A stretch of DNA of 64,000 bases, from assembly GCA_951812785.1 (NCBI GenBank), contig OX638335.1:1631653-1695652 (forward strand), in the 5' to 3' direction. The notes under the pieces were generated by a model, which was given only the letters and a program-made list of their open reading frames with translations, was not told the DNA's origin and ran no database searches. Positions 1,261 through 26,938 of this stretch are shown one piece after another. Positions within the stretch are counted from its first letter, which is position 1, and every line of letters starts with the position of its first letter. The position numbers and the translations under genes were made by a program. This stretch comes from an uncultured Gammaproteobacteria bacterium (GTDB taxonomy: Bacteria; Pseudomonadota; Gammaproteobacteria; UBA4575).

Positions 1261-1530
1261 TTATCGACGCAGACCTAATGATGAAATCAGCTGCTGATAG
1301 CGTGGCTGATCTTTGCGTTTAATATAATCAAGCAACTTACGTCGCTGAGTGACCATCTTTAACAAGCCATGACGAGAATGGTGATCATGTTTGTGGCTTG
1401 AAAAATGGTCACCCAGGTACTTTATTCGAGCAGATAGTAGTGCCACCTGAACCTCTGGTGATCCAGTGTCATTTGCTGACTGTTGATATTGCTTGACGAT
1501 GCCCGACTTATCTTCCGCTGTTAGTGCCAT
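1261..1530 (-). CDS. rpsO: 30S ribosomal protein S15
   Basis: Small-subunit protein that binds 16S rRNA at the three-way junction of helices 20-22 and organises the platform. It is 89 residues, the usual length, and carries the family core ([13 protein letters not shown], then the [12 protein letters not shown] segment and a basic C-terminal helix). It lies between truB and pnp on the minus strand. In relatives S15 represses its own mRNA through a leader structure; I could not define that structure here. Confidence 0.98.
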
Positions 1531-1625
1531 TTTTATAAACTTTCTAGTAGTATTTTACTGGGTGGTGTTCTTAAGAGCGCGCGATTCTACCATGTGTCCG
1601 CAAAGGCACAATACCTTAAATTGCT

Positions 1626-2543
1626 TTAAGACATGTAAAACTTACTAAAATGTACAAATCCATCGTTTTTCTGCTCTCCTAAGCCCCGAAAAACACGGTT
1701 GGTATCATAAATACGGACATACTGGCTATTCAAATCGGCAGGAAATCTAATTTTGCGCCCTTGCTCTAAAGACAAAACCAGTCCATTTTTCATTTCATAC
1801 TGCGGATAATCATAATAGGCTGCTTCTGCGGGCAGAATTGTTCTCTCCAGTGCTAACGCTCCATCCGCGCTCAATTGCTCCAATTGTTCGTAGGTATACA
1901 TATTGTGGGTCAAGCCAAACGTGCCTACCGATAATCTGCGCAACTCATCAACGTGCGCCAGACATCCTAACTTTGCGCCAAGATCTTCGACCAATGTGCG
2001 AATATACGTGCCTTTCGAACAATGTACTGTCATGGCGACTTTGTCACTTTGAATATTATCGATAGTAATTGAGTAGATATGTACCTGGCGTGATGCACGC
2101 TCTACTTGTTTACCTTCTCTGGCTAACTTATACATAGGCACACCATCTTTTTTGATTGCAGAATACATTGGCGGTATCTGATCAATATCGCCTTCAAAAG
2201 ATTTAACCGCTGCCGCTAATCCATCAAAGTGCTGCTGATTGACATTGGCAGTTGCAACCACTTGCCCTTCTTTATCTCCAGTGTCTGTTTGCTCTCCAAG
2301 TTTAGCCACAACGTAGTAAGATTTCTTGGAACTCATCACGTGATCTGCAATTTTAGTCGCGCGACCAAAACATAATACCAACGCACCTGTGGCTAGGGGA
2401 TCTAATGTTCCTGTGTGCCCAGCTTTTTTAGCATTAAACAAGTGCTTTACGCGCTGCAAAGCATGATTTGAACTGAGACCAAGAGATTTATCAAGAACCA
2501 GTAAACCGTGAATATCACGGCCAAATTTATTTTTCTTTGACAA
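1626..2543 (-). CDS. truB: tRNA pseudouridine(55) synthase
   Basis: Makes pseudouridine 55 in the T-loop of tRNAs. It is 305 residues; motif II GTLDPLATG holds the catalytic Asp at residue 48. The C-terminal part resembles the TruB PUA-like extension. The start is a TTG at 2543 giving MSKKNKFGRD; no ATG lies upstream in frame and the Shine-Dalgarno is weak, so translation may depend on coupling to rbfA 66 nt upstream. Part of the rimP-nusA-infB-rbfA-truB-rpsO-pnp cluster. Confidence 0.96.
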   Translation of the reverse strand: MSKKNKFGRDIHGLLVLDKSLGLSSNHALQRVKHLFNAKKAGHTGTLDPLATGALVLCFGRATKIADHVMSSKKSYYVVAKLGEQTDTGDKEGQVVATANVNQQHFDGLAAAVKSFEGDIDQIPPMYSAIKKDGVPMYKLAREGKQVERASRQVHIYSITIDNIQSDKVAMTVHCSKGTYIRTLVEDLGAKLGCLAHVDELRRLSVGTFGLTHNMYTYEQLEQLSADGALALERTILPAEAAYYDYPQYEMKNGLVLSLEQGRKIRFPADLNSQYVRIYDTNRVFRGLGEQKNDGFVHFSKFYMS

Positions 2544-2609
2544 GGGCTGTATTGATACGAAAATTAATTCAAGGAAGTTTATAGCCGATAAATTAGGACT
2601 ATTTTAAAA

Positions 2610-2960
2610 TTAATCCAGCTTTTCTTTAGCTAATATGTCATTCAAGCGAGCGGATCGCTCCAAGGTGTCATCGTAGTGGAACGATAGTGTCGGAATAATA
2701 CGCAAGCGCATTAACTTCCCGAGTTCTTTGCGCAAATATGCAGAGCAACTATTTAAGCCAACCTGCAATTCTTTAATATCTTTGTTTTGCTTGTAAGGAG
2801 AGAAATAAATTTTTGCAGCAGAAAGATCTTTAGTCACCACCACTTCTGAAATAGAAAAATCCTTCACTCTTGGATCATTCACTGAATCTCTTATCAGTAC
2901 AACCAATTCTCTTCGGATTTGTTCTGCAACACGTAATGCACGAGGAAAGTCTTTAGGCAT
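2610..2960 (-). CDS. rbfA: 30S ribosome-binding factor A
   Basis: Late-acting 30S maturation factor with a KH-like fold that binds near helix 1 of 16S rRNA; needed for cold growth in E. coli. It is 116 residues, close to the usual size, and shows the family segments RVAEQIRREL and the C-terminal IPTLSFHYDDTLE. Its ATG lies only 2 nt after the infB stop codon, so the two are surely co-transcribed and probably translationally coupled. Confidence 0.96.
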   Translation of the reverse strand: MPKDFPRALRVAEQIRRELVVLIRDSVNDPRVKDFSISEVVVTKDLSAAKIYFSPYKQNKDIKELQVGLNSCSAYLRKELGKLMRLRIIPTLSFHYDDTLERSARLNDILAKEKLD

Positions 2961-2962
2961 GC

Positions 2963-5461
2963 TTATGCAATGGTACGTGCCACTTCAGTTCGCTCAAAAA
3001 CTTCAATGCTGTCACCAGACTTCACATCATTATAGTTTTTAACCGCGATACCACACTCTGTGCCAGCACGAACTTCAGACACGTTGTCTTTATGTCGACG
3101 CAACGACTCTAGTTCACCTTCGTAAATAACAACGTTATCGCGTAACACGCGAATTGGATTACCTTTCTTGACTACCCCATCAACCACCTGGCAACCAGCT
3201 ACCGCACCAAGAATAGAAGACTTAAACACATCTTTGACTTCAGCAATACCAACAATCTCTTCACGCAATTCTGGAGATAACAGTCCATTCATTGCATCTT
3301 TAACATCATCTATTGCGTCATAAATGATGCTGTAATAACGCAAATCAACACCGGTTTCTTCTAATGCTCTGCGCGCACTAGCATCCGCTCGAACGTTGAA
3401 ACCAGTCACTATCGCGTTGGAAGCGGCAGCTAAATTTATGTCTGACTCAGTAATTCCCCCTACTCCAGAACTTACAATTGTGACTTTCACTTCATCAGTT
3501 GATAGATCTGTTAAGGAATCACGTAATGCTTCTGCACTACCTTGCACATCAGCCTTAATCAAAATATTAACTACTTCAGTTTCACCTTCTTGCATTTGAT
3601 TAAAGATATTTTCAAGCTTCGCTGATTGTTGTGCCGCGAGCTTTGATTCTCTTGTTTTACCTTTGCGTACTTCGGCTACTTCACGCGCTTTACGATCATT
3701 CTCAACCACGATGGCTTCTTCACCTGCCCGAACTGTGCCGGACAAACCAAGCACAACAACCGGTAATGAAGGACCGGCAGATTCAACCTGATTGCCTTGC
3801 TCATCAAACATGGCACGAACACGCCCGTATTCTTCACCACATAAGAGAATATCTCCACGGGATAATTCACCTTCCTGAACCAAGATTGTGCTGACAGGAC
3901 CACGCCCTTTATCCAAAGTAGATTCAATAACAATACCTGTCGCAGGGCCCTCAGGCACACCGACTAATTCCATCACTTCTGCCTGTAGGCTTAACGCACT
4001 AAGAAGTTCATCAATGCCTTGACCCGTCTTGGCAGAGACATTAATAAATTGCACGTCGCCACCCCATTCTTCAGGAATAACATCTAATCCTGATAAATCA
4101 GTACGCACTCGGTCTGGATCAGCATCTTCTTTGTCCATTTTATTAACCGCTACAACCATTGGCACACCGGCCGCTTTTGAATGCTTCACAGCCTCTGCTG
4201 TTTGCGGCATAACACCATCATCTGCAGATACAACCAATATAACAATATCTGTCGCTTGAGCTCCTCGTGCACGCATAGCAGTAAATGCAGCGTGTCCCGG
4301 CGTATCCAAGAAGGTAATTACTCCGTTAGCAGTTTCCACATGGTATGCACCAATATGCTGCGTAATACCACCGGCCTCCCCTGCTGCAACTCGCGAATGG
4401 CGGATGTAGTCTAGTAATGAAGTTTTTCCATGATCAACATGACCCATGACTGTCACAACTGGAGGCCGTGTTACCGATGCTTTTGAGTCATAGACATGCT
4501 TAACAAGCTTAGACTCAATATCATTTTCTACAAATGGTTTAGCAGTATGCCCAAGCTCTTCTACCACTAGAATCGCTGTATCTTGATCAATCACTTGGTT
4601 GATGGTGGCCATCGCCCCCATATTCATCATGACTTTAATCACTTCAGCCGCTTTAATTGCCATTTTTTGCGCAAGGTCTGATACAGAAATGCTTTCCGGA
4701 ACCAATACTTCTTTCACCACAGGAGCGACAGGGCGCTCAAAACCATGCTTGCCTGATGCTTCTACTCTCTGTGTACGTGATCTAGTTTTTGGCTTACGAC
4801 GCCCACGCTTATCGCTGGCAACATGCAATTCTTTTCGCTTAGCATGACCATCATTTTTACCTTTCTTACGATTGACTTTTTTGTCTTTTGCGGGTGCTTC
4901 TTTACCCGGTGTCGCAGGTGCTGGCGCAACACTTGATATCTGCTTCTCTTGTGCAGCAGCTTCTGCTGCAATGCGTTGTTGTTCTGCTTCTTTAGCTACG
5001 ATCTCTTCTTGTGCTTTACGTTCTTCATCAGCAATTCGCGCAGCTTCTGCGTCTTTTAAGTCTTGCTCTTTTTTCTCTGCAGCAAGTCTATGCTGCTCAG
5101 TCTCTTCCTCTTCTCTACGCTCTTGCTCTTCGATTAATTCACTACGCTGTACGTAAGTTTTCTTTCTACGCACTTCAACGTTAACAGTCTTCGTAGTTGC
5201 GGTACGACCTTGTCCTCCACCACTGACTTTCAGCTGCGAGGTGCTCTTACGCCGTAAAGTAATTTTTTTACCTTCAGCGGAACCACCTAACTTTGAGCTT
5301 TTGCTTTGTCGCAAATGCTCTAGTAACTGTAGCTTCTCACTATCTGAGATTTCCTGATCAGGCGCAGAAAAACTTAATCCAGCATCTTTAAGCTGCTCCA
5401 GTAATTTATCAACTGGAGTCCCAACGACTTCTGCTAATTGTTGTACAGTGACTTGTGCCAT
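2963..5461 (-). CDS. infB: Translation initiation factor IF-2
   Basis: GTPase that delivers initiator tRNA to the 30S P site and promotes subunit joining. It is 832 residues. An N-terminal IF2_N domain (about 1-50) is followed by a long charged Glu/Ala/Lys/Arg-rich linker (about 100-235), a second IF2_N-like domain (about 255-305), and the G domain with G1 GHVDHGKT at residues 340-347, DTPGH and NKMD. Domains II, III and the C-terminal initiator-tRNA-binding domain follow. It lies 12 nt after nusA. Confidence 0.98.
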
Positions 5462-5473
5462 GCGCCCTCTATT

Positions 5474-6973
5474 TTATTTTGTTTCTTCTGCTGCAAACCA
5501 TGGTGCGCGCGCTTCCATAATCAGCTCGCCCGCTTTTTCTTCTGTCAGCCCATCAATATCAGAGATATCATCAACCGCTTGTTCAGCCAAATCTTCCATA
5601 GTGGTGACACCTCTAGCTGCTAACTCAAAAACTATATCGCGTGCCATCCCGGCCATTTCTAATAAGTCTTCAGCAGGCTCTGCGGAATCTTCGCCACCGC
5701 CAGAAATTGCATGAGTTAATAATGCATCACGTGCACGGCCTCTTAGCTCGTCGACCATTTGCTCATCAAATTCTTCGACTTCCAACAATTCTTTAGGTGG
5801 TACGTAGGCAATTTCATCAACCGTTGAAAATCCTTCCTGGACTAAAATTGCGGCCACTTCTTCATCCACGGCTAAATTATCCATGAACAGCTTCTGAAGA
5901 ACTTTCATTTCACCTTCATTCTTCTCTTCCGCCTGACCTTCAGTCATCACATTTAGCTCCCAACCAGTCAATTCACTGGCAAGCTTCACATTCTGCCCGC
6001 CACGACCAATGGCTTGAGATAATTTTTCTTCTTCGACCGCGATATCCATGCTGTTAGATTCTTCATCAACAACAATTGATAAGGTCACTGCTGGAGACAT
6101 TGCATTGATAACAAATTGTGCAGGGTTTTCATCCCACAAAATTATATCGATACGTTCACCCGCCAGCTCATTGGAAACAGACTGGACACGTGACCCACGC
6201 ATGCCTACACAGGCACCTACGGGATCAAGTCTCGGATCAAGAGAACGCACCGCTATCTTGGCGCGCAAACCTGGATCACGCGCTGCTCCCAGTACATCAA
6301 TCAAATTTTGTCCCACTTCTGGAACTTCAAGTTTAAATAACTCAATCAAGAATTCTGGTACTGTTCTGGTAAGAAACAACTGCGGGCCTCGTACTTCTGA
6401 GCGCACATCTTTTAAGTAGGCACGAATACGATCACCTGGACGAACTGATTCACGGGGAACTAGATCTTCCCTAGAAATGAAGCCTTCTGCGTTACCGCCC
6501 AAATCGATGTATACGCCACTGTGCTCTGAACGTTTAACCACGCCCATTACCAACTCACCAATACGATTAGCATATGCATCAAAAATTTGCGCACGCTCTG
6601 CTTCTCGCACTTTCTGCACAATTACTTGCTTTGCGGTATGTGCTGCAATCCGGCCAAAGGCAACAGATTCAATGCTTTCTTCTACGTACGCACCAATTTG
6701 AATATCAGGGTGATTTTGTATCGCGTAGCTATATAAAATTTGCTTATCTGGAGATTCAAATTCAGGATCTTCATCATCCATCACCAACCAGCGGCGGAAT
6801 GTATCGTAGTCACCTGACTCACGATCAATCCCCACACGCACATCAATATCTTTGGTATAGCGCTTACGTGTCGCTGTTGCTAATGCAGCTTCTATGGCCT
6901 GAAAGATAATATCTTTCTCAACACCTTTCTCGTTAGAAACAGTATCTGCAACCATTAAAATTTCTTTATTCAT
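5474..6973 (-). CDS. nusA: Transcription termination/antitermination protein NusA
   Basis: RNA polymerase-associated factor that modulates pausing, termination and antitermination. It is 499 residues, the usual gammaproteobacterial length. Visible parts are the N-terminal RNAP-binding domain (MNKEILMVADTVSNEKGV), an S1 domain (GVVKRSEHSGVYIDLGGNAEG), two KH domains (including EEEKLSQAIGRGGQNVKLAS) and two C-terminal acidic helix-hairpin repeats. It sits 23 nt after rimP and 12 nt before infB in the classic cluster. Confidence 0.98.
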   Translation of the reverse strand: MNKEILMVADTVSNEKGVEKDIIFQAIEAALATATRKRYTKDIDVRVGIDRESGDYDTFRRWLVMDDEDPEFESPDKQILYSYAIQNHPDIQIGAYVEESIESVAFGRIAAHTAKQVIVQKVREAERAQIFDAYANRIGELVMGVVKRSEHSGVYIDLGGNAEGFISREDLVPRESVRPGDRIRAYLKDVRSEVRGPQLFLTRTVPEFLIELFKLEVPEVGQNLIDVLGAARDPGLRAKIAVRSLDPRLDPVGACVGMRGSRVQSVSNELAGERIDIILWDENPAQFVINAMSPAVTLSIVVDEESNSMDIAVEEEKLSQAIGRGGQNVKLASELTGWELNVMTEGQAEEKNEGEMKVLQKLFMDNLAVDEEVAAILVQEGFSTVDEIAYVPPKELLEVEEFDEQMVDELRGRARDALLTHAISGGGEDSAEPAEDLLEMAGMARDIVFELAARGVTTMEDLAEQAVDDISDIDGLTEEKAGELIMEARAPWFAAEETK

Positions 6974-9653: not shown

Positions 9654-11162
9654 TCATGAAATCTTAGTCATCAACGCTAGATTTAACACTCTCTCTAGAG
9701 AAGGTTGTAGATATTCAACTAAAGGCGCAGGCCAAACACCTAACGCAATCACCATTAATGCTAGCGTCATTAAAATTAAAAATTCGCGCGCATTAACATC
9801 TTGCAATGCCGCGACTGATTCATTTAACACGTCACCAAAAATAACACGCTTAACCAACCACAAAGAATAAGCAGCACCAACAATCAAAGTAATCGCTGCT
9901 AATGCGGAATACCATAAGTTCGCATCAAAACTAGCCACAATTACCATGAATTCACCAACAAACCCAGAAGTACCTGGCAAGCCAGAATTAGCCATTGCAA
10001 ACAACACCATGAATGCAGCAAATACAGGCATGCTATTCACTACACCTCGATAGTCGTCTATATTGCGCGAATGCATGCGATCATAAAGAACGCCGACACA
10101 TAAGAATAACGCACCCGAGATAAATCCATGCGATATCATTTGAATCATACCGCCCTGTAACGCCAGCATTTGGAAGTCTGTATTGGCTGCTGTCATTTGA
10201 TGAATAACAAAGAAACCTAACGTCACAAAACCCATATGTGCAATTGAAGAATATGCGATGAGTTTTTTCATGTCTTTTTGTGCCAAGGCGACAAAACCAA
10301 TATAGACAATTGCAATTAACGACATTGCAATTAACAACCAATCTAATTCACGACTTGCATCCGGTGTAATTGGCAGATTGAAACGCAAGAATCCATAGCC
10401 ACCAATTTTCAGCATAATCGCCGCAAGTATGACTGACCCACCTGTTGGCGCTTCTACGTGTGCATCCGGCAACCACGTATGTACTGGCCACATTGGCACT
10501 TTAACGGCAAAGGCAATTAAGAAGGCTAAAAATATAAATATTTGTACATTCAGCGGAATGGCAGCATTGGATAACTGTGAAATTTCAAATGTGTTTGTTG
10601 TTGAATATAAATACAACAGCGCAATCAACATAAACACCGAACCGAAGAACGTGTACAAAAAGAACTTAATCGTCGCGTAAACGCGTCTTGGGCCACCCCA
10701 CATTCCTATAATAAGAAACATAGGAATCAGCATGGCTTCAAAGAATACATAGAACAACATAGCATCTAAGGCACAGAACACTCCCACCATTAGTCCTTCA
10801 AGTAACAAGAAGGCAGCCAAGTAATTATGCATTTGATGCTTTACATTCGTCCAACTGGCGATCACTACTAACAATGTTATAAACACTGTTAGCACAATTA
10901 AGGTAATCGAAATAGCATCGGCACCTAAGGCATAATAAATATCGAATGATTCAATCCAACGATGCTTTTCAACAAACTGCATGTCTGCAGACATATGAGA
11001 ATTAGTAATCAACAATACACCTAAAATCATTTCCACCATTGAAACAATCAAGGCAAACCATTTCACCCCTTCGCCAACTCCTCGACCCATCACCATAATG
11101 AGGATCGCCGCAAGAATCGGTATCCAGATTAATATACTGAGAATAGGCATATCCATGTGCAT
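9654..11162 (-). CDS. nuoM: NADH-quinone oxidoreductase subunit M
   Basis: Second antiporter-like proton-channel subunit of complex I, 502 residues, polytopic. The segment FFEAMLIPMFLIIGMWGG carries the conserved TM5 Glu, and KVPMWPVHTWLPDAHVEAPT and AYSSIAHMGFV are family hallmarks. The annotated start (MHMDMPILS) has two nearby alternative ATGs at codons 3 and 5. It abuts nuoL with no spacer. Confidence 0.97.
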   Translation of the reverse strand: MHMDMPILSILIWIPILAAILIMVMGRGVGEGVKWFALIVSMVEMILGVLLITNSHMSADMQFVEKHRWIESFDIYYALGADAISITLIVLTVFITLLVVIASWTNVKHQMHNYLAAFLLLEGLMVGVFCALDAMLFYVFFEAMLIPMFLIIGMWGGPRRVYATIKFFLYTFFGSVFMLIALLYLYSTTNTFEISQLSNAAIPLNVQIFIFLAFLIAFAVKVPMWPVHTWLPDAHVEAPTGGSVILAAIMLKIGGYGFLRFNLPITPDASRELDWLLIAMSLIAIVYIGFVALAQKDMKKLIAYSSIAHMGFVTLGFFVIHQMTAANTDFQMLALQGGMIQMISHGFISGALFLCVGVLYDRMHSRNIDDYRGVVNSMPVFAAFMVLFAMANSGLPGTSGFVGEFMVIVASFDANLWYSALAAITLIVGAAYSLWLVKRVIFGDVLNESVAALQDVNAREFLILMTLALMVIALGVWPAPLVEYLQPSLERVLNLALMTKIS

Positions 11163-13121
11163 CTAAGTCTGATAATAAAAGTATGTTAATAACTCAAGCA
11201 AACCAATAATCATGGCAAAGGCATATTGATATAAATAACCACTTTGAATTTTACGCAACTGCATGGAGACACCACGCACCATACTGGCGGTTCCGTTCAC
11301 CATTAATCCATCAATCAATATGCGGTCGCCCAGTGCCGACGCTACTTTACCGACTCCCACGCCTAGGCGAGCAAAGCCTTTTATATATAACCAATCACAA
11401 CCGTATTTCCTAGCGAGAATAAAACTAGGGATAGCAAGTACTGGTGCTAATAATTTCGGAATGCTTGGCACTAACGAATAACACAACCAAGCCAATAAAA
11501 CACCGCCCAACAACAAGTAAAATGCCGTGGCCACAAAACCATGAGTAATCATTGCTTGCACACCATGGAAGTGTTCTGCCATTTTCGTCATAACGCCATG
11601 TTGCTCACCAACGCGAATTGAAGCTGCAAAAAAGTCGCCATAAATCATCGGCTCTATTGCATATCCTGCAAACACACTACATATCGCCAAAACTATCAGC
11701 GGCACTGTAACTACTTTTGGTGTTTCATTAACATGCGAATAATTTTCATCACTCATACGCGGCTTGCCATGGAACACCAAAATAAACAATCGTAATGAAT
11801 AAAATGCGGTAATGAATACTCCAGACAACACCATCAAATACACGTAATGCGCACCTGGCAGTTCAGATAAATGCACTGCCTCAATAATAGATTCCTTAGA
11901 GAAAAATCCTGAGAATGCCGGAAATCCAATCAAAGCCAATGTGCCGATTAAAGATGTTACATAGGTAATTGGCATGCGTTTCCATAAACCACCCATCTTG
12001 CGAATGTTTTGCTCATGATGCATAGCAATAATCACTGAACCCGCAGCCAAAAATAATAACGCTTTAAAAAACGCATGCGTATAAAGATGAAAGATAGCCA
12101 ATGAGTAAGCCGACACACCTAACGCCACTGTCATGTAACCCAACTGAGACAACGTGGAGTATGCAACAACTTTTTTAATGTCATCCTGTACCATCGCTAC
12201 CAATCCCATAAAGAAAGCAGTAATCGCTCCAACAAACATAATAAACAATAGTGCTGTTTCACTTAATTCAAATAATGGCGACATACGCGCCACCATAAAT
12301 ATTCCCGCTGTGACCATGGTCGCTGCATGTATTAACGCTGAAATAGGCGTTGGGCCTTCCATAGAATCAGGCAGCCATACATGTAATGGTACTTGTGCTG
12401 ATTTACCCATTGCACCCACAAACAAAGCGATGCATATAAAAGTTAATAGTGGTACTTGAAAAGAGTTTGTGATTGTTAGCTGCGATTCCGTCAGACTAGG
12501 CGCGGCTGCAAACACTTGAGCGTAATCCAAGCTCGACGTTGAAACAGCGATTGCAGCAATGCCTAGCAAGAATCCAAAATCTCCGACTCTATTAACTAAA
12601 AACGCTTTGATGTTGGCCAAAATTGCTGAAGGTCGCGTATACCAAAAACCAATCAGTAAATATGACACTAATCCAACCGCTTCCCAGCCAAAGAATAACT
12701 GTAAAAAGTTATTCGACATCACCAACATTAACATTGAAAACGTAAACAAGGAGATGTAACTAAAGAAGCGCTTATAACCTGGATCATCGTGCATATAACC
12801 GATCGTATATATATGCACCATTAGTGACACAGAAGTTACCACCAGCATCATAATGACGGTTAACGAATCAATTAAGAAACCAACCCCTAAAGAAAAGCCC
12901 CCTATTTTTGCCCATTCATACACTGAGAAATTTTGTGGCGCATATTCAGTCTGAAATAGTTCGTAAAAAACTAACCCTGAAGCGATTAATGCAATGCCAA
13001 CACCAGCAATAGTAATTAAGTGCGCATGTGACTTAGATAACCACTTACCAAACAATCCAACTACAATCGAGCCAAACAATGGCGCGAGTACTGTGGTTAG
13101 ACATAACTGAACAAAAGACAT
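11163..13121 (-). CDS. nuoL: NADH-quinone oxidoreductase subunit L
   Basis: Largest antiporter-like subunit of complex I, 652 residues, with the core antiporter fold and the C-terminal extension that forms the long lateral helix. Conserved parts visible are FFGWEAVGLVSYLLIGFW (key Glu), KSAQVPLHVWLPDSMEGPTP and YSTLSQLGYM. It lies 3 nt after nuoK. Confidence 0.98.
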   Translation of the reverse strand: MSFVQLCLTTVLAPLFGSIVVGLFGKWLSKSHAHLITIAGVGIALIASGLVFYELFQTEYAPQNFSVYEWAKIGGFSLGVGFLIDSLTVIMMLVVTSVSLMVHIYTIGYMHDDPGYKRFFSYISLFTFSMLMLVMSNNFLQLFFGWEAVGLVSYLLIGFWYTRPSAILANIKAFLVNRVGDFGFLLGIAAIAVSTSSLDYAQVFAAAPSLTESQLTITNSFQVPLLTFICIALFVGAMGKSAQVPLHVWLPDSMEGPTPISALIHAATMVTAGIFMVARMSPLFELSETALLFIMFVGAITAFFMGLVAMVQDDIKKVVAYSTLSQLGYMTVALGVSAYSLAIFHLYTHAFFKALLFLAAGSVIIAMHHEQNIRKMGGLWKRMPITYVTSLIGTLALIGFPAFSGFFSKESIIEAVHLSELPGAHYVYLMVLSGVFITAFYSLRLFILVFHGKPRMSDENYSHVNETPKVVTVPLIVLAICSVFAGYAIEPMIYGDFFAASIRVGEQHGVMTKMAEHFHGVQAMITHGFVATAFYLLLGGVLLAWLCYSLVPSIPKLLAPVLAIPSFILARKYGCDWLYIKGFARLGVGVGKVASALGDRILIDGLMVNGTASMVRGVSMQLRKIQSGYLYQYAFAMIIGLLELLTYFYYQT

Positions 13122-22462: not shown

Positions 22463-22819
22463 TTAATCCCAATTTAGCGCACCTTTTTTCCACTCATAAA
22501 TGAAACCAATAGTGAGAATAGTCAGGAAGAATGCCATGGCTAATAAGCCAGGAATTCCTATATCGCGTAGCGCGACAGCCCATGGAAATAGAAATGCGAT
22601 TTCCAAATCAAAAATAATAAATAGAATTGCCACTAGATAATAACGAACATCAAAACGCCCGCGTGAATCTTCAAACGCTTCAAATCCACACTCATAAGGT
22701 GAGTCTTTTGCCACCTCAGGCACGCGCTTACTCAGTAACATACCGGCGATCAGTGGCACAACACCTATGACTAAGGCAATTGCCAGAAATATGAGAATTG
22801 GAACGTAGTTCTGAAGCAT
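22463..22819 (-). CDS. nuoA: NADH-quinone oxidoreductase subunit A
   Basis: First gene of the nuo operon; small membrane subunit with three transmembrane helices that borders the quinone tunnel. It is 118 residues from the ATG at 22819 ([11 protein letters not shown]). The signature [20 protein letters not shown], with the conserved Cys of the TM1-2 loop, is present. The frame is open further upstream, but those residues are not family-like. No clear Shine-Dalgarno is seen at the ATG. Confidence 0.95.
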
Positions 22820-22993
22820 ATCTATATAGTTTTTATAGTTGTCGATTATGCCGCGATCTGTGCACAGCAATGGGCCGCACACAGATATTAGGCTCCCATT
22901 AAAGGGAACACAAATTGATGAATTGTATGGGACGATAAATTCTCCAGAATTGGGTAATTTATGTTCAAACTCTGATTTCCATTAGATTTTTTC

Positions 22994-23279
22994 TTTTTCC
23001 CAATTAGAAAAAGTAATTCCAACCATTATGGAATTTGTGGATATTGCGGGTCTAGTTGCTGGGGCATCCATGGGTGAAGGCTTGGGTAATCAATTCTTGG
23101 CAAATATCTGTGAAACAGATGCAATTGCCCAAGTGGTTCGTTGCTTTGAAAATGATGATATCCTGCACGTGGATGGGAAAGTTGGTCCATTAAGTGACGT
23201 CGAAACCATTAATACTGAATTAGTGCTGCAGATTTTGAAACCTTAGAAAAAGTAGTTACGCGTCTAAAAAAATGCAAAG
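22994..23279 (+). pseudogene. ychF: Internal fragment of ychF (ribosome-binding ATPase)
   Basis: A stretch of about 95 codons matches the YchF/OLA1 G domain: [19 protein letters not shown], then [27 protein letters not shown] and TINTELVL. Both ends of the gene are missing, so no Walker A and no TGS domain. After LVL a one-base frameshift occurs near 23232-23238; the next frame continues as [15 protein letters not shown], also YchF-like. The fragment is dead and out of context; the working copy should be elsewhere in the genome. Confidence 0.88.
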
Positions 23280-23290
23280 TCTGGTAATTA

Positions 23291-23596
23291 ATGAAAAATA
23301 TATCAGCAGTAGTTATTTCAATCCTAATTTTATGTCATCTTATGACAGCAGCTAAGGCAGACCCTATGGAGGCCGTTAAGTGCTACAGCATAGCTTGGGA
23401 GCATCCTAACAATGAAGGCTTAGGTTTAAATAGAGGACAAGCACGGCGACTTTGTAAGGGTACTAAGAATGCTGAAAAGACTATAGCTTGTTTTGACGTA
23501 GCGTGGGGACACCCTGACAATGGCGGCATGGGTTTAACTAAAGGCGGCGCTATAGAATTATGTCAAGCTTGCGCCTCTGATTCTCAAGGGGGATGA
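23291..23596 (+). CDS. Small secreted protein with two 36-residue Cys repeats
   Basis: 101 residues with a clear signal peptide (hydrophobic 5-18, likely cut after AKA at 23), so periplasmic or secreted. The mature part is two tandem repeats of exactly 36 residues. Each has a Cys pair 24 residues apart (31/55 and 67/91), AW (35-36, 71-72), HP (38-39, 74-75), G-x-G-L, and A-x-x-LC. One extra Cys is at 94. I do not recognise the family or function. It sits alone between the ychF fragment and an insertion sequence. Confidence 0.75.
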   Translation: MKNISAVVISILILCHLMTAAKADPMEAVKCYSIAWEHPNNEGLGLNRGQARRLCKGTKNAEKTIACFDVAWGHPDNGGMGLTKGGAIELCQACASDSQGG

Positions 23597-23633
23597 TCTA
23601 AGAAAAAATTATCATTACTTTACTACTTAATAA

Positions 23634-23765
23634 ATGGAAGTAGCTAGTAGTGGGGCTCTTACTAATTTACTACTTGTAGTTCTCATTTGTGTAGTTGTTA
23701 TAGGCTGTAGTAGCTCAGACCTGATCGTACCGTTACCGGTTATTGATAGGAGTCTGTCAGTTTAG
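23634..23765 (+). pseudogene. Lipoprotein signal peptide truncated by the IS481-family element
   Basis: A 43-codon frame starts MEVASSGALTNLL and continues into a hydrophobic run ending VVIGC, a good lipobox. The insertion-sequence left end (TGTAGTAG) begins at 23706, exactly at the TGT codon for the lipobox Cys; everything after it is read from the element, ending in a stop at 23763. The original gene body is gone. Whether the Cys was native or supplied by the element cannot be told from here. Confidence 0.5.
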
Positions 23766-24871
23766 ATGTGAGCTAAATTCTTTTCAGCCCAAATCAATTT
23801 ACCATCCATTAACCTGTCCATAGGTGTGCTACCACCGCCCATGTTGCCTTGATGAGTGCGTTCATTGTGATCAGTTTCTATCCAGTTGTCTTGATCTTTT
23901 GGTCAATCCTCCCTGGTTGAGTACCGTTTTTTCCTGAAGGTAATTTGATAAAACTCATTCAGAATGGTTTTATCAAAGCGCTCACAGATGCCATGGGTGT
24001 TGCGGTGATCAATGTCGTTAATGGGCAGGTATCACGGATCGTCATGATGCTCCACGCGCCCACAATATTCTGTGCCTCTGTCGGTTAAACTACGTAGCAT
24101 CGGCAAGGCATGCTTTTCAAAAAACGGTAGCACCTCATCAAAGAGTAGGTCTGCGGCGGTAATCGGCGTCTTAGTCGTGTAGAGTGCCGCAAAGGCGATC
24201 TTGCTGTAGGTGTCTACGAACGTTTGCGGGTATAGCCGACCAACACCTTTGAGGTGGCCTAGGTAACCAGGATGTGCCGTGTCAATCTCACCACAGGCCT
24301 CGTCATCCTGTTTCTCAAGGGCGGCGATCTGTGCATCGCTTAAGATAATGCCATCCTTGGCAATTTCTTCTTCGAGTGCTTTGAGTCATTTCTTGAAGTG
24401 CTCTAGAGTATGGCGCAGCCAAACGGAACGCACACCGCTACCAGCGATAAACACACCTCTCTTACGTAGTTCATTGCTGCTTCGATGTCGCCCAACCGCG
24501 GGCTGTTCAATCGCTGACGTAACCCCTGCATGTGCTGTGGGTTCATCCACACGGTTTTTAACATCGGCTGTTCTACGACTCTTGTCAATCCGTGAGTCAA
24601 TGCCACCTTCTTCAACCCGCTGTTGATAACGATAGAATGTGTCTCGCGACACCCCCATGACTTGACAGGCGCTAGATACGTTGCCCAGTTCTTCTGCTAA
24701 GTTGGGCAAGCCCGCCTTGTGTTTAATGATTGGATTGTTAGTATGAATCATGAGAGTTACCTGCAATTTTGGTTTGATTTAAAGATTTCAACACCTTTAT
24801 CAAAACGGGTAACTCTCGCTTTTGCAACTCTTGTGGATTGCTAATTGTCAGATCGGGTCTGAACTATTACG
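23706..24871 (-). mobile_element. IS481-family insertion sequence, decayed copy 1
   Basis: About 1.17 kb bounded by imperfect inverted ends (TGTAGTAGCTCAGACCTGATC on the left; the reverse complement of the right end reads GTAATAGTTCAGACCCGATC). The single transposase gene is read on the minus strand. A near-identical second copy lies at 45932-47039. The right terminal base is G here and A in copy 2, which fits the TGT...ACA ends of the family. I found no target-site duplication. Confidence 0.85.
23762..24751 (-). pseudogene. IS481-family transposase, broken (copy 1)
   Basis: Starts MIHTNNPIIKHKAGL with an N-terminal helix-turn-helix (GNVSSACQVMGVSRDTFYRYQ). It is broken by TGA at about 24390, where copy 2 has CGA (Arg in HFKKRLKAL). 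The later part keeps DTYSKIAFAALYTTKTPITA, missing from copy 2, and LTDRGTEYCG. A stop then follows HHDD, and another lies near the C-terminus. The DDE core around the second Asp appears to be deleted relative to intact family members. Inactive. Confidence 0.85.
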
Positions 24872-24963
24872 GATTATCTCTCCGCAGTGTTGCACTATGT
24901 GGTTGTACCTCCGCTTGCGCCCGCCAACCCGTCCGCCTCGAAGGAGCTCCCCGGTGGTTTCGT

Positions 24964-26184
24964 TTAGACGCTTTGGTTAATCGCTACGATCTCCGCGCCA
25001 GCTTTCAGTGTATCGAGGTAATCCGCCCATTTCTGTATCATATTTTTTCTTTCTATTAGATGAGCAGTGCGGTTATAGGCACGTCCATTAGGATCTCTCA
25101 CAGCATGAGCCAACTGATGCTCAATGAAATCAGGGCGAAAACCAAGAACTTCATCAAGGATAGTTCTGACCATAGCTCGGAATCCGTGGCCTGTCATTTC
25201 GTTTTTCTCGATACCTATGCGTCGCATGGCGGCCAGGACGGCATTGTCACTCATGGAACGCTTGGTTGAACGTCCGCTCGGAAATATGTATCGACCTTTA
25301 ACAACCAGTCACAGGCTTTATTTCTTTCAAGATTTCCATCGCCTGATTCACCAGTGGAGCAATGTGGGAGTATTTGTCTTGGTAATGGTGAATCGCCATT
25401 CAGCATTGTCAAAATCAATATCTTTCCATTCAGCTTTTCGGAGTTCTCCGGGGCGGACAAACACAAGTGACGCCAACCGCATGGCGCAGCTCACTACTAT
25501 GGAGTCTTCGTAGCTGTCGATTGCACGAAGCAAGGCACCAACTTTAACTGGGTTGGTAATTGCAGCTCGGTGCTTTACTTTTTCAGGTGGCAGAGCGCCG
25601 CGTAAATCTCGGCATGGGTCAGCTTCAGCTTTACCCGTGGCAATGGCATAGCGAAATGCCTGACTACAGGCCGTTAAGGTGCGATGAGCGGTATGGAGCT
25701 TTCCTTCCTTTTCCAGCCGTCGTAGAGTCGCCAAAATATCTTTTGCCGTGATTTCAGCGATCGGTTTATTGCCTAATCTTGGAAAAAGATAGAGTTCCAA
25801 CCGCTTCAAGACATAGTGGGCATGCCGTTCCGTCCAAGTATGGGTCTGCTTTTGATGCCATTCCCGTGCAATAGCTTCAAAGGTGTTTTCAGCCTTTTCC
25901 AGTTCTGTAGCTTTTTTCTCTTTCTTGCGTGCTCCCGGATCGATGTCATCGGCAAGCAGTCTCCTAGCCTCATCCCGCCGGTCTCTGGCCATTTTCAGGC
26001 TGGCATCTGGATAAACACCGTGGGACAGCTTCTTTTCCTTACCATGATAACGATATTTCTGCTACCAGTACTTGGCGCCTGAGGACATCAATCACGTTTA
26101 GGTAGAGGCCACCACACCGTCAGACATCCTGTACGGCTTGTCAGCGGCCTTTGCGTTGCGAATTGCGGTATCGGTGAGTTTCAT
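24964..26184 (-). pseudogene. P4-type tyrosine integrase, decayed
   Basis: Site-specific recombinase of the kind that inserts islands at tRNA 3' ends. It starts MKLTDTAIRNAKAADKPYRM at 26184. A frameshift and an in-frame TAG (W-stop-Q) follow near 26060-26120. A long intact middle (25348-25992) holds the core-binding domain and the catalytic Arg in VRPGELR. After two more frameshifts (about 25300-25360) comes the C-terminal HGFR, HQLAH and the Tyr of AYNRT. It lies next to tRNA-Leu and points away from it, the usual arrangement. Confidence 0.9.
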
Positions 26185-26337
26185 ATGGGGGCTACTCAAT
26201 CTTAACGATATTGAACATGCCCCCATGAGCCTCCAGATGTCAATAACTTTCGATGGACGCTTCTGGACAATAACTGCTCCAAAATGCTTATTTTATGGTG
26301 TTTATAGGACTTCTCTGGATTTTATTGGAAGAAAAAT

Positions 26338-26422
26338 TGGTGCCGATGGCCGGAGTCGAACCGGCACAGCTTTCGCCACTGCCCCCTCAAGACAGCGTGT
26401 CTACCAATTCCACCACATCGGC
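26338..26422 (-). tRNA. tRNA-Leu (GAG)
   Basis: 85-nt class II tRNA with a long variable arm and encoded CCA. The anticodon loop is CTTGAGG, giving anticodon GAG. It lies directly downstream of secG on the same strand, as leuU does in E. coli. A decayed P4-type integrase starts about 150 nt from its 3' end; I found no second copy of the tRNA 3' end in the window. Confidence 0.97.
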
Positions 26423-26461
26423 TGTATTTTTAGGAAGTTACAGAAAACAACCTATTAAATA

Positions 26462-26938
26462 TTACTGAGGCACATCAGACGGCATTGCCTGCTCAGCTTT
26501 ATCCATGGTATCACCAGCCACTTCAGGTATATCCGAAGCTTGATCTGATTGCCTTTGAATTTCTTCTTTAGCTATATCAAGCATCTCTTCTACTGATGCA
26601 CCTTCTGGAAGATTAATTACATTAGGAACATCAGAAGATGTCTCTGGTATATCAACCTGTTGTTCTTGCGTCACTGATTGCATAACACTCTCAGCCACAT
26701 CGCGATTACTGGCAAGATATGCGAGAACAATACTGTTAATAAAGAATGCCGCAGCAAGAATTGCTGTTGCACGCGTCATGAATGACGAAGAACCTTTTGC
26801 ACCGAATACTGTACCAGACCCGCCGCCACCGCCAAATGCTGCACCTGCTGCTGCACCCGCACCTTTTTGTAGTAATACTAAGCCAATCAGCCCTGCGGCA
26901 ATAAGTACATCCACTGAAACTAAAATACTATATAACAT
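26462..26938 (-). CDS. secG: Preprotein translocase subunit SecG
   Basis: Small membrane subunit of SecYEG that helps SecA-driven export. It is 158 residues, longer than E. coli SecG (110) because of an acidic Gln/Asp-rich C-terminal tail. Two transmembrane helices flank the conserved GGGGSGTVFGAKGSSSFMTR segment. Between tpiA and tRNA-Leu. Confidence 0.96.
   Translation of the reverse strand: MLYSILVSVDVLIAAGLIGLVLLQKGAGAAAGAAFGGGGGSGTVFGAKGSSSFMTRATAILAAAFFINSIVLAYLASNRDVAESVMQSVTQEQQVDIPETSSDVPNVINLPEGASVEEMLDIAKEEIQRQSDQASDIPEVAGDTMDKAEQAMPSDVPQ

Follow-up and report, generated by a model that had tools for sequence, protein, structure and literature searches.

The open reading frame P0001 lies at positions 23291–23596 (+ strand) of the window, which is the whole 64,000-nucleotide stretch of an uncultured gammaproteobacterium analysed here. 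Our reading, to which a probability of about 0.6 is assigned, is that this laterally acquired gene encodes an exported binding protein made of alpha-hairpins stapled by disulfides. In the proposed arrangement, a Sec signal peptide would be followed by two alpha-helical hairpins, each of them probably closed by a disulfide that runs from the first helix (C-F/Y-x-x-A-W) to the second (G-Q-A-x-x-L-C). The hairpins would be joined by a tight G-T/A turn, leading to the stacking of the units as a mini-solenoid, and the product would most likely act outside the cytoplasm as a rigid, non-enzymatic module that binds a protein of the envelope or a secreted one. The gene would be a passenger of lateral transfer, as suggested by an attC-bounded array around one relative, attC-like neighbours of two others, a phage-like contig carrying a fourth, and the integrase-bearing tRNA-Leu insert that carries the window copy.

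Exported alpha-hairpin repeats and mobile small genes are known kinds, and the family itself is absent from the libraries searched. It is a small family, recognisable in sequence by a defined motif, left unnamed by those libraries and tied to lateral transfer by several different carriers. The strict 36-residue period with one cysteine pair per unit could make it a simple natural stapled-hairpin scaffold, and such a scaffold would be easily expressed and tested for binding.

Repeat architecture and putative export signal

P0001 extends from ATG to TGA and encodes 101 amino acids with a net charge of -1; the antisense of the same interval contains stops. The first unit spans C31 to C55 (23381–23455, +) and the second C67 to C91 (23489–23563, +), both delimited by the repeat alignment, and they are separated by an 11-residue link beginning K-G-T-K-N-A (23456–23488, +), which is defined by the cysteine spacing. 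Both units have a cysteine spacing of 24, and unit 2 repeats unit 1 at an offset of exactly 36 residues. When the protein from residue 24 onward is aligned with itself at this offset, 13 of 42 positions are identical and the BLOSUM62 score is 80, compared with -10 for the next-best offset in the range of 10 to 59. None of 5000 shuffles reached the real score, the highest of them being 27. The exact 36-residue period of the original prediction is therefore upheld, together with its alignment of the A-W, H-P, G-x-G-L, A and L-C positions, to which N11 and G19 of the unit can be added as common residues. The likeness of the units is maintained at the protein level, since between unit 1 and unit 2 the synonymous difference (pS 0.67) greatly exceeds the replacement difference (pN 0.31). 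Two cysteines lie beyond the unit pairs: residue 15, within the signal-peptide-like part, and residue 94, C-terminal to unit 2.

The N-terminal 23 residues (23291–23359, +) resemble a signal peptide, with A-K-A before D24 as a cleavage site placed by eye. Judged in the same way, such a start is retained in most relatives, the exception being L062, in which no clear export signal is visible and the start of the gene is uncertain. This recurrence supports the earlier claim of a secreted protein, and P0001 is presumably exported by a Sec-type signal peptide, as far as the sequence indicates.

Relatives and their conservation

No usable match to P0001 was obtained in Pfam, NCBIfam, PHROGs, PADLOC or the PDB sequences, and literature searches returned no account of this C-x23-C family, so that the pattern which could not be named at the outset is named by none of these libraries. 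Direct protein searches gave no second copy in the own genome and no kin in 94 genomes of relatives (own included), none that could be confirmed among 20 stretches of named genome contigs, and none in plasmids, phages and viral contigs. Taken alone, these empty searches would make P0001 resemble an orphan. The candidates rejected on the way were a second match in the own genome (34% identical, with a stop), taken as chance, L003, with two internal stops, and L004, which reads as an ORF of thioredoxin-reductase type.

Relatives were found by a degenerate DNA pattern for the core G-[LMIVF]-G-[LF]-x-x-G-Q-A-x-x-L-C, which was expected to be shared. The pattern matched once in the window and in none of 100 shuffles; elsewhere it matched 81 stretches of bacterial genome contigs and five viral stretches. 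By reading frame and cysteine pattern, judged by eye, eight of the 81 bacterial stretches and one of the five viral ones are relatives, and the remaining 73 bacterial stretches, comprising ABC-transporter LSGGQ motifs and other frames, were dropped. The relatives come from Rhodoferax (L019), Psychrosphaera (L020), Gallionellaceae (L049), Oceanospirillaceae (L055), Comamonadaceae (L059), Chromatiales (L062), Sideroxydans (L063), Methylophilus (L072) and a viral contig (L093). Two copies of the pattern stand exactly 108 nt apart in six of the eight bacterial relatives. The viral member (11014–11331) has a shortened unit 1, with a cysteine spacing of 20. The Oceanospirillaceae copy (2701–3009, -) carries an in-frame stop ahead of unit 1, explained either by a broken gene or by an error of the assembly, and it was omitted from the alignments.

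The alignment of nine proteins contains 18 invariant columns, and all nine have at least two C-to-C units and the C-x11-C link. Cysteines occur at both ends of every unit, in two-unit and three-unit forms alike. In 11 proteins, all 14 gaps between units have a cysteine spacing of 12, whereas within units this spacing varies from 18 to 27; thus, the link rather than the unit is the fixed part. The 24-residue spacing described in the original prediction applies to both units of P0001 but does not extend to the wider family, where it may be 18, 20, 24, 26 or 27. Substitutions among the relatives are of the coding type, synonymous changes exceeding replacements: pN/pS is 0.31–0.44 in 14 of 36 pairs, these being the pairs with pN below 0.35, and the three near-identical units of L049 differ by pS 0.40–0.57 and pN 0.08–0.12. 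Homologues have thus been found and their substitutions look coding, the opposite of the outcome (no homologue together with non-coding substitutions) that would have spoken against a real protein.

L049 is a three-unit form, and its first unit has G-L-G-L-N-R-G-Q-A in common with the first unit of P0001, just as the last units of both proteins have G-G-A-I-E-L-C. Because the terminal units resemble each other in this way, the number of units seems, on sequence grounds, to change through gain or loss in the middle.

The family is rare, as it is contained in none of 18 other genomes examined. A search of 273 genomes of the class with a two-unit profile, a check proposed from the start, recovered the own gene; besides it only L006 and L007 appeared, weakly, and both were taken as chance. 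The family profile matched in five of 369 class genomes: the own gene, L096, L097, and L098 and L099, the last two of which were judged by eye to be chance. A broader profile found the own gene only among 398 genomes of the phylum, the family profile gave only two already-known matches among 399 genomes of the Methylophilus order, and later scans of plasmids, phages and viral contigs with the relatives as queries added nothing new, re-finding the phage-like contig once. A weak match among the 18 genomes (L100) was also set down to chance. The matches of L049 to phrog_37687 (2.2e-06) and phrog_10980 (8.8e-05) were treated as summed repeats in which no single stretch passes, and likewise the below-cut-off match to Get5_C (7.9e-04).

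L096 (genome G265) and L097 (genome G342) are distant kin, with hhalign E-values of 2.2e-08 and 2.6e-07. They have in common with the family the link L-C-x-G-T/A ... C-F with its invariant 12-residue spacing, but differ from it in their unit lengths (27, 26 and 18), in being W-rich instead of having G-L-G-L, and, in the case of L097, in a long extra C-terminal part. The L097 ORF (1312–2658) encodes 449 residues, with the repeats at the N-terminus and two look-alike segments downstream, and has no Pfam match.

Predicted fold and cysteine pairing

An AlphaFold model of P0001, based on the nine-member alignment, places helices at residues 25–35, 48–55, 61–72 and 84–97 with a mean pLDDT of 81.7, and a model of the three-unit L049 has the same alternation of helices (mean pLDDT 80.2); both were fed by nine sequences with a Neff of 2.2, which makes the fold provisional. 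The first two of these helices would be assigned to unit 1, the third to the link and the fourth to unit 2. In the predicted unit, the loop H-P-x-N-G-G-L-G-L connects two helices. The loop and the G-L-G-L core are present in almost all units, and a structural role for them is more likely than a catalytic one.

Such a model accommodates the hairpin units suggested earlier, and two pairings of the cysteines come into consideration. One disulfide per unit (C31-C55 and C67-C91) is favoured, owing to the parity of the cysteines and the predicted positions of the helices. C67 stands five residues before the end of its own helix and C91 seven past the start of the next one, which would enable them to face each other. 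As each unit starts and ends with a cysteine, pairing within units leaves no unit cysteine over; it does leave Cys 94 of P0001 free, which counts against this reading. Alternatively, the disulfides could bridge neighbouring units, from LC to CF (C55-C67), with the terminal cysteines free or paired with each other. Such is the arrangement of the Helicobacter Hcp proteins, which PMC3851747 describes as an exported, disulfide-stabilised solenoid of 36-residue helix-turn-helix units. The invariance of the LC-CF spacing, set against the variable spacing within units, speaks for this pairing; it is nevertheless doubtful, since it would leave the first and last unit cysteines unpaired in all two-unit and three-unit forms, and since C55, at a helix end, and C67, seven residues inside its helix, are not level by rough helix geometry on the predicted helices.

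The nearest known 36-residue repeat is Sel1. The Sel1-like Hcp proteins and the P0001 family are alike in their 36-residue helix-turn-helix units, in export and in a disulfide-stabilised solenoid, which for P0001 are predicted or deduced features; they are unlike in the placement of the cysteines and in the absence of a Sel1 sequence match. The Sel1 consensus contains a G-x-G-[LV] motif. Taking P0001 as a strongly diverged repeat protein of the Sel1/TPR type would account for the equal unit length (the Sel1 model has 36 positions), for the predicted helix-turn-helix form and for the similar placement of this motif, yet the likelihood of such an origin is very slight: Sel1 (PF08238) did not match P0001 at E up to 10, neither Sel1 nor TPR matched the nine members at E up to 1, and hhalign of the family against a Sel1 protein encoded in the window's own genome gave an E of 0.77. 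The match to a well-described repeat family that would have contradicted the original prediction was thus not obtained with the nearest candidate.

Structure look-ups, read by title, gave no Sel1 or TPR chain and no convincing fold. Foldseek found no significant match, the best E being 4.3 for P0001 and 1.9 for L049. With VIA-align, TAL-effector or BurrH chains (by title) made up most of the best 26 rows for the L049 model, the best having a Z of 6.7 (rmsd 5.2, 111 aligned), which is below the level set by the tool for helical repeats. The P0001 model gave MTERF4 with a Z of 4.5 (rmsd 2.4, 60 aligned) and a TALE with a Z of 4.2 (rmsd 2.8, 63 aligned). The repeats of the TALE/BurrH type have 34 residues (PMC12444791). 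The predicted geometry of P0001 and L049 may resemble that of the TALE/BurrH and MTERF repeats, but the scores remain below the level of kinship for helical repeats and the Foldseek E-values are 1.9 or worse. The family also departs from TALEs in its putative export and cysteine pairing, in the net charge of P0001 and in sequence: the family profile was compared with the PDB sequences, TALEs included, and matched none of the TALEs at E up to 10, and Pfam gave no TAL match for P0001 or the nine members. According to the tool's own guidance, the scores may reflect just the common arrangement of helical repeats.

The tRNA-Leu insert and the carriers of the relatives

The window copy lies in an inserted patch of about 3.37 kb (22970–26337) between the nuoA side and a tRNA-Leu gene. 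The spacer is common to the window, G003 and G002 up to 22968–22969, after which G003, of the same genus, has 214 bp and G002 has 992 bases of other sequence. The patch begins with a GTPase fragment (23028–23246, +; MMR_HSR1, below cut-off), which we take to be of the YchF type. This fragment is 80% identical to the full-length copy of its own genome and 86–87% identical to those of G005, G003 and G002, and is therefore a foreign piece. Downstream of P0001 there is a multicopy insertion sequence (23706–24870) with a transposase-type HTH, followed by a tyrosine integrase in pieces (24964–25992, -). Its part at 25348–25992 matches Phage_int_M (3.2e-36) and Phage_integrase (5.2e-07), and 24964–25254, with no Pfam match, reads by eye as the C-terminal part. 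The tRNA-Leu (gag; 26338–26422, -) is the likely insertion target. The same tRNA-Leu is found on the nuoA side in L137, L138, L140 and L141, and the spacer may be a recurrent insertion spot, since it differs in G002 too. P0001 is thus an intact gene within a broken patch, as had been noticed at the outset, and it most likely arrived laterally. The 2.16-Mb genome carries a heavy load of the insertion sequence itself, which recurs at 31 further sites with matches longer than 1 kb.

Judging from the sequence, P0001 may or may not be expressed in its present host. It could be a silent passenger that has not yet decayed, which is compatible with the main reading and has a probability only somewhat short of even. 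Within 22970–23710 no promoter scores above chance and nothing resembles a terminator, no clear ribosome site is seen by eye, the neighbours are broken and the gene is present in only one of 19 genomes; against silence, the frame is intact, all four unit cysteines are kept and the family shows coding-type substitutions elsewhere.

Different carriers are observed for the relatives. The Methylophilus gene (3536–3871) is one of a series of short ORFs on the same strand and is flanked on both sides by attC-like sites (3469–3526 and 3897–3956), recognised by the attC core, as expected of a cassette. A covariance model (R1), narrow in that it was built from six sites of this single array, was run over 84 sources. 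It recovered its six source sites, two more in the same locus and, in L019, a weak palindrome; neither the window nor any of 72 non-family loci gave a match at E up to 1. Near the window copy (22800–26500) the model gave no attC-like site, the best score of this one-array model being 9.4 bits (E 0.26) inside the gene. Weak, suggestive attC-like sites lie 28 bases upstream of the Sideroxydans gene (L063, 4654–4716) and 11 bases downstream of the Chromatiales gene (L062, 7812–7868); they emerged only when the filters were switched off, with E-values of 0.077, 0.1 and 0.67. A stretch in L059 was rejected, as its folding is no better than chance. In Xanthomonas, signal peptides are present in 11.6% of integron cassette proteins (PMC12444791); the attC-bounded Methylophilus copy is of this kind, unlike the window copy, which has no attC-like site. 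Next to the viral member lie genes with matches to families of phage DNA polymerases and exonucleases, which marks its contig as phage-like.

The small size, cysteines, apparent export and lateral movement of P0001 would also suit the precursor of a secreted antibacterial or signalling peptide rather than a binding scaffold. This is improbable: no immunity-type neighbour recurs, no partner gene being common to the family loci by eye, and three members have no match in PADLOC. The lack of a common partner gene, the rarity of the family and the missing promoter also count against the preferred reading. For the binding protein preferred here, a wider significance can be proposed, although it is quite unlikely to hold in full. 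The family would then constitute a new class of exported repeat proteins, namely solenoids of disulfide-stapled alpha-hairpins packed in a TALE/MTERF-like manner. They would serve as evolvable extracellular binding scaffolds with a variable number of units (two for P0001 and three for L049), and integrons, islands and phages would shuffle them among Gammaproteobacteria.

Of nine genomes searched, only the two of L063 and L020 contain integron integrases above the family cut-off, and the remaining matches are partial and of background type. The Methylophilus locus holds an array of eight attC-like sites (1313–6774), and its genome has no integron integrase that exceeds the cut-off; the array has perhaps lost its integrase.
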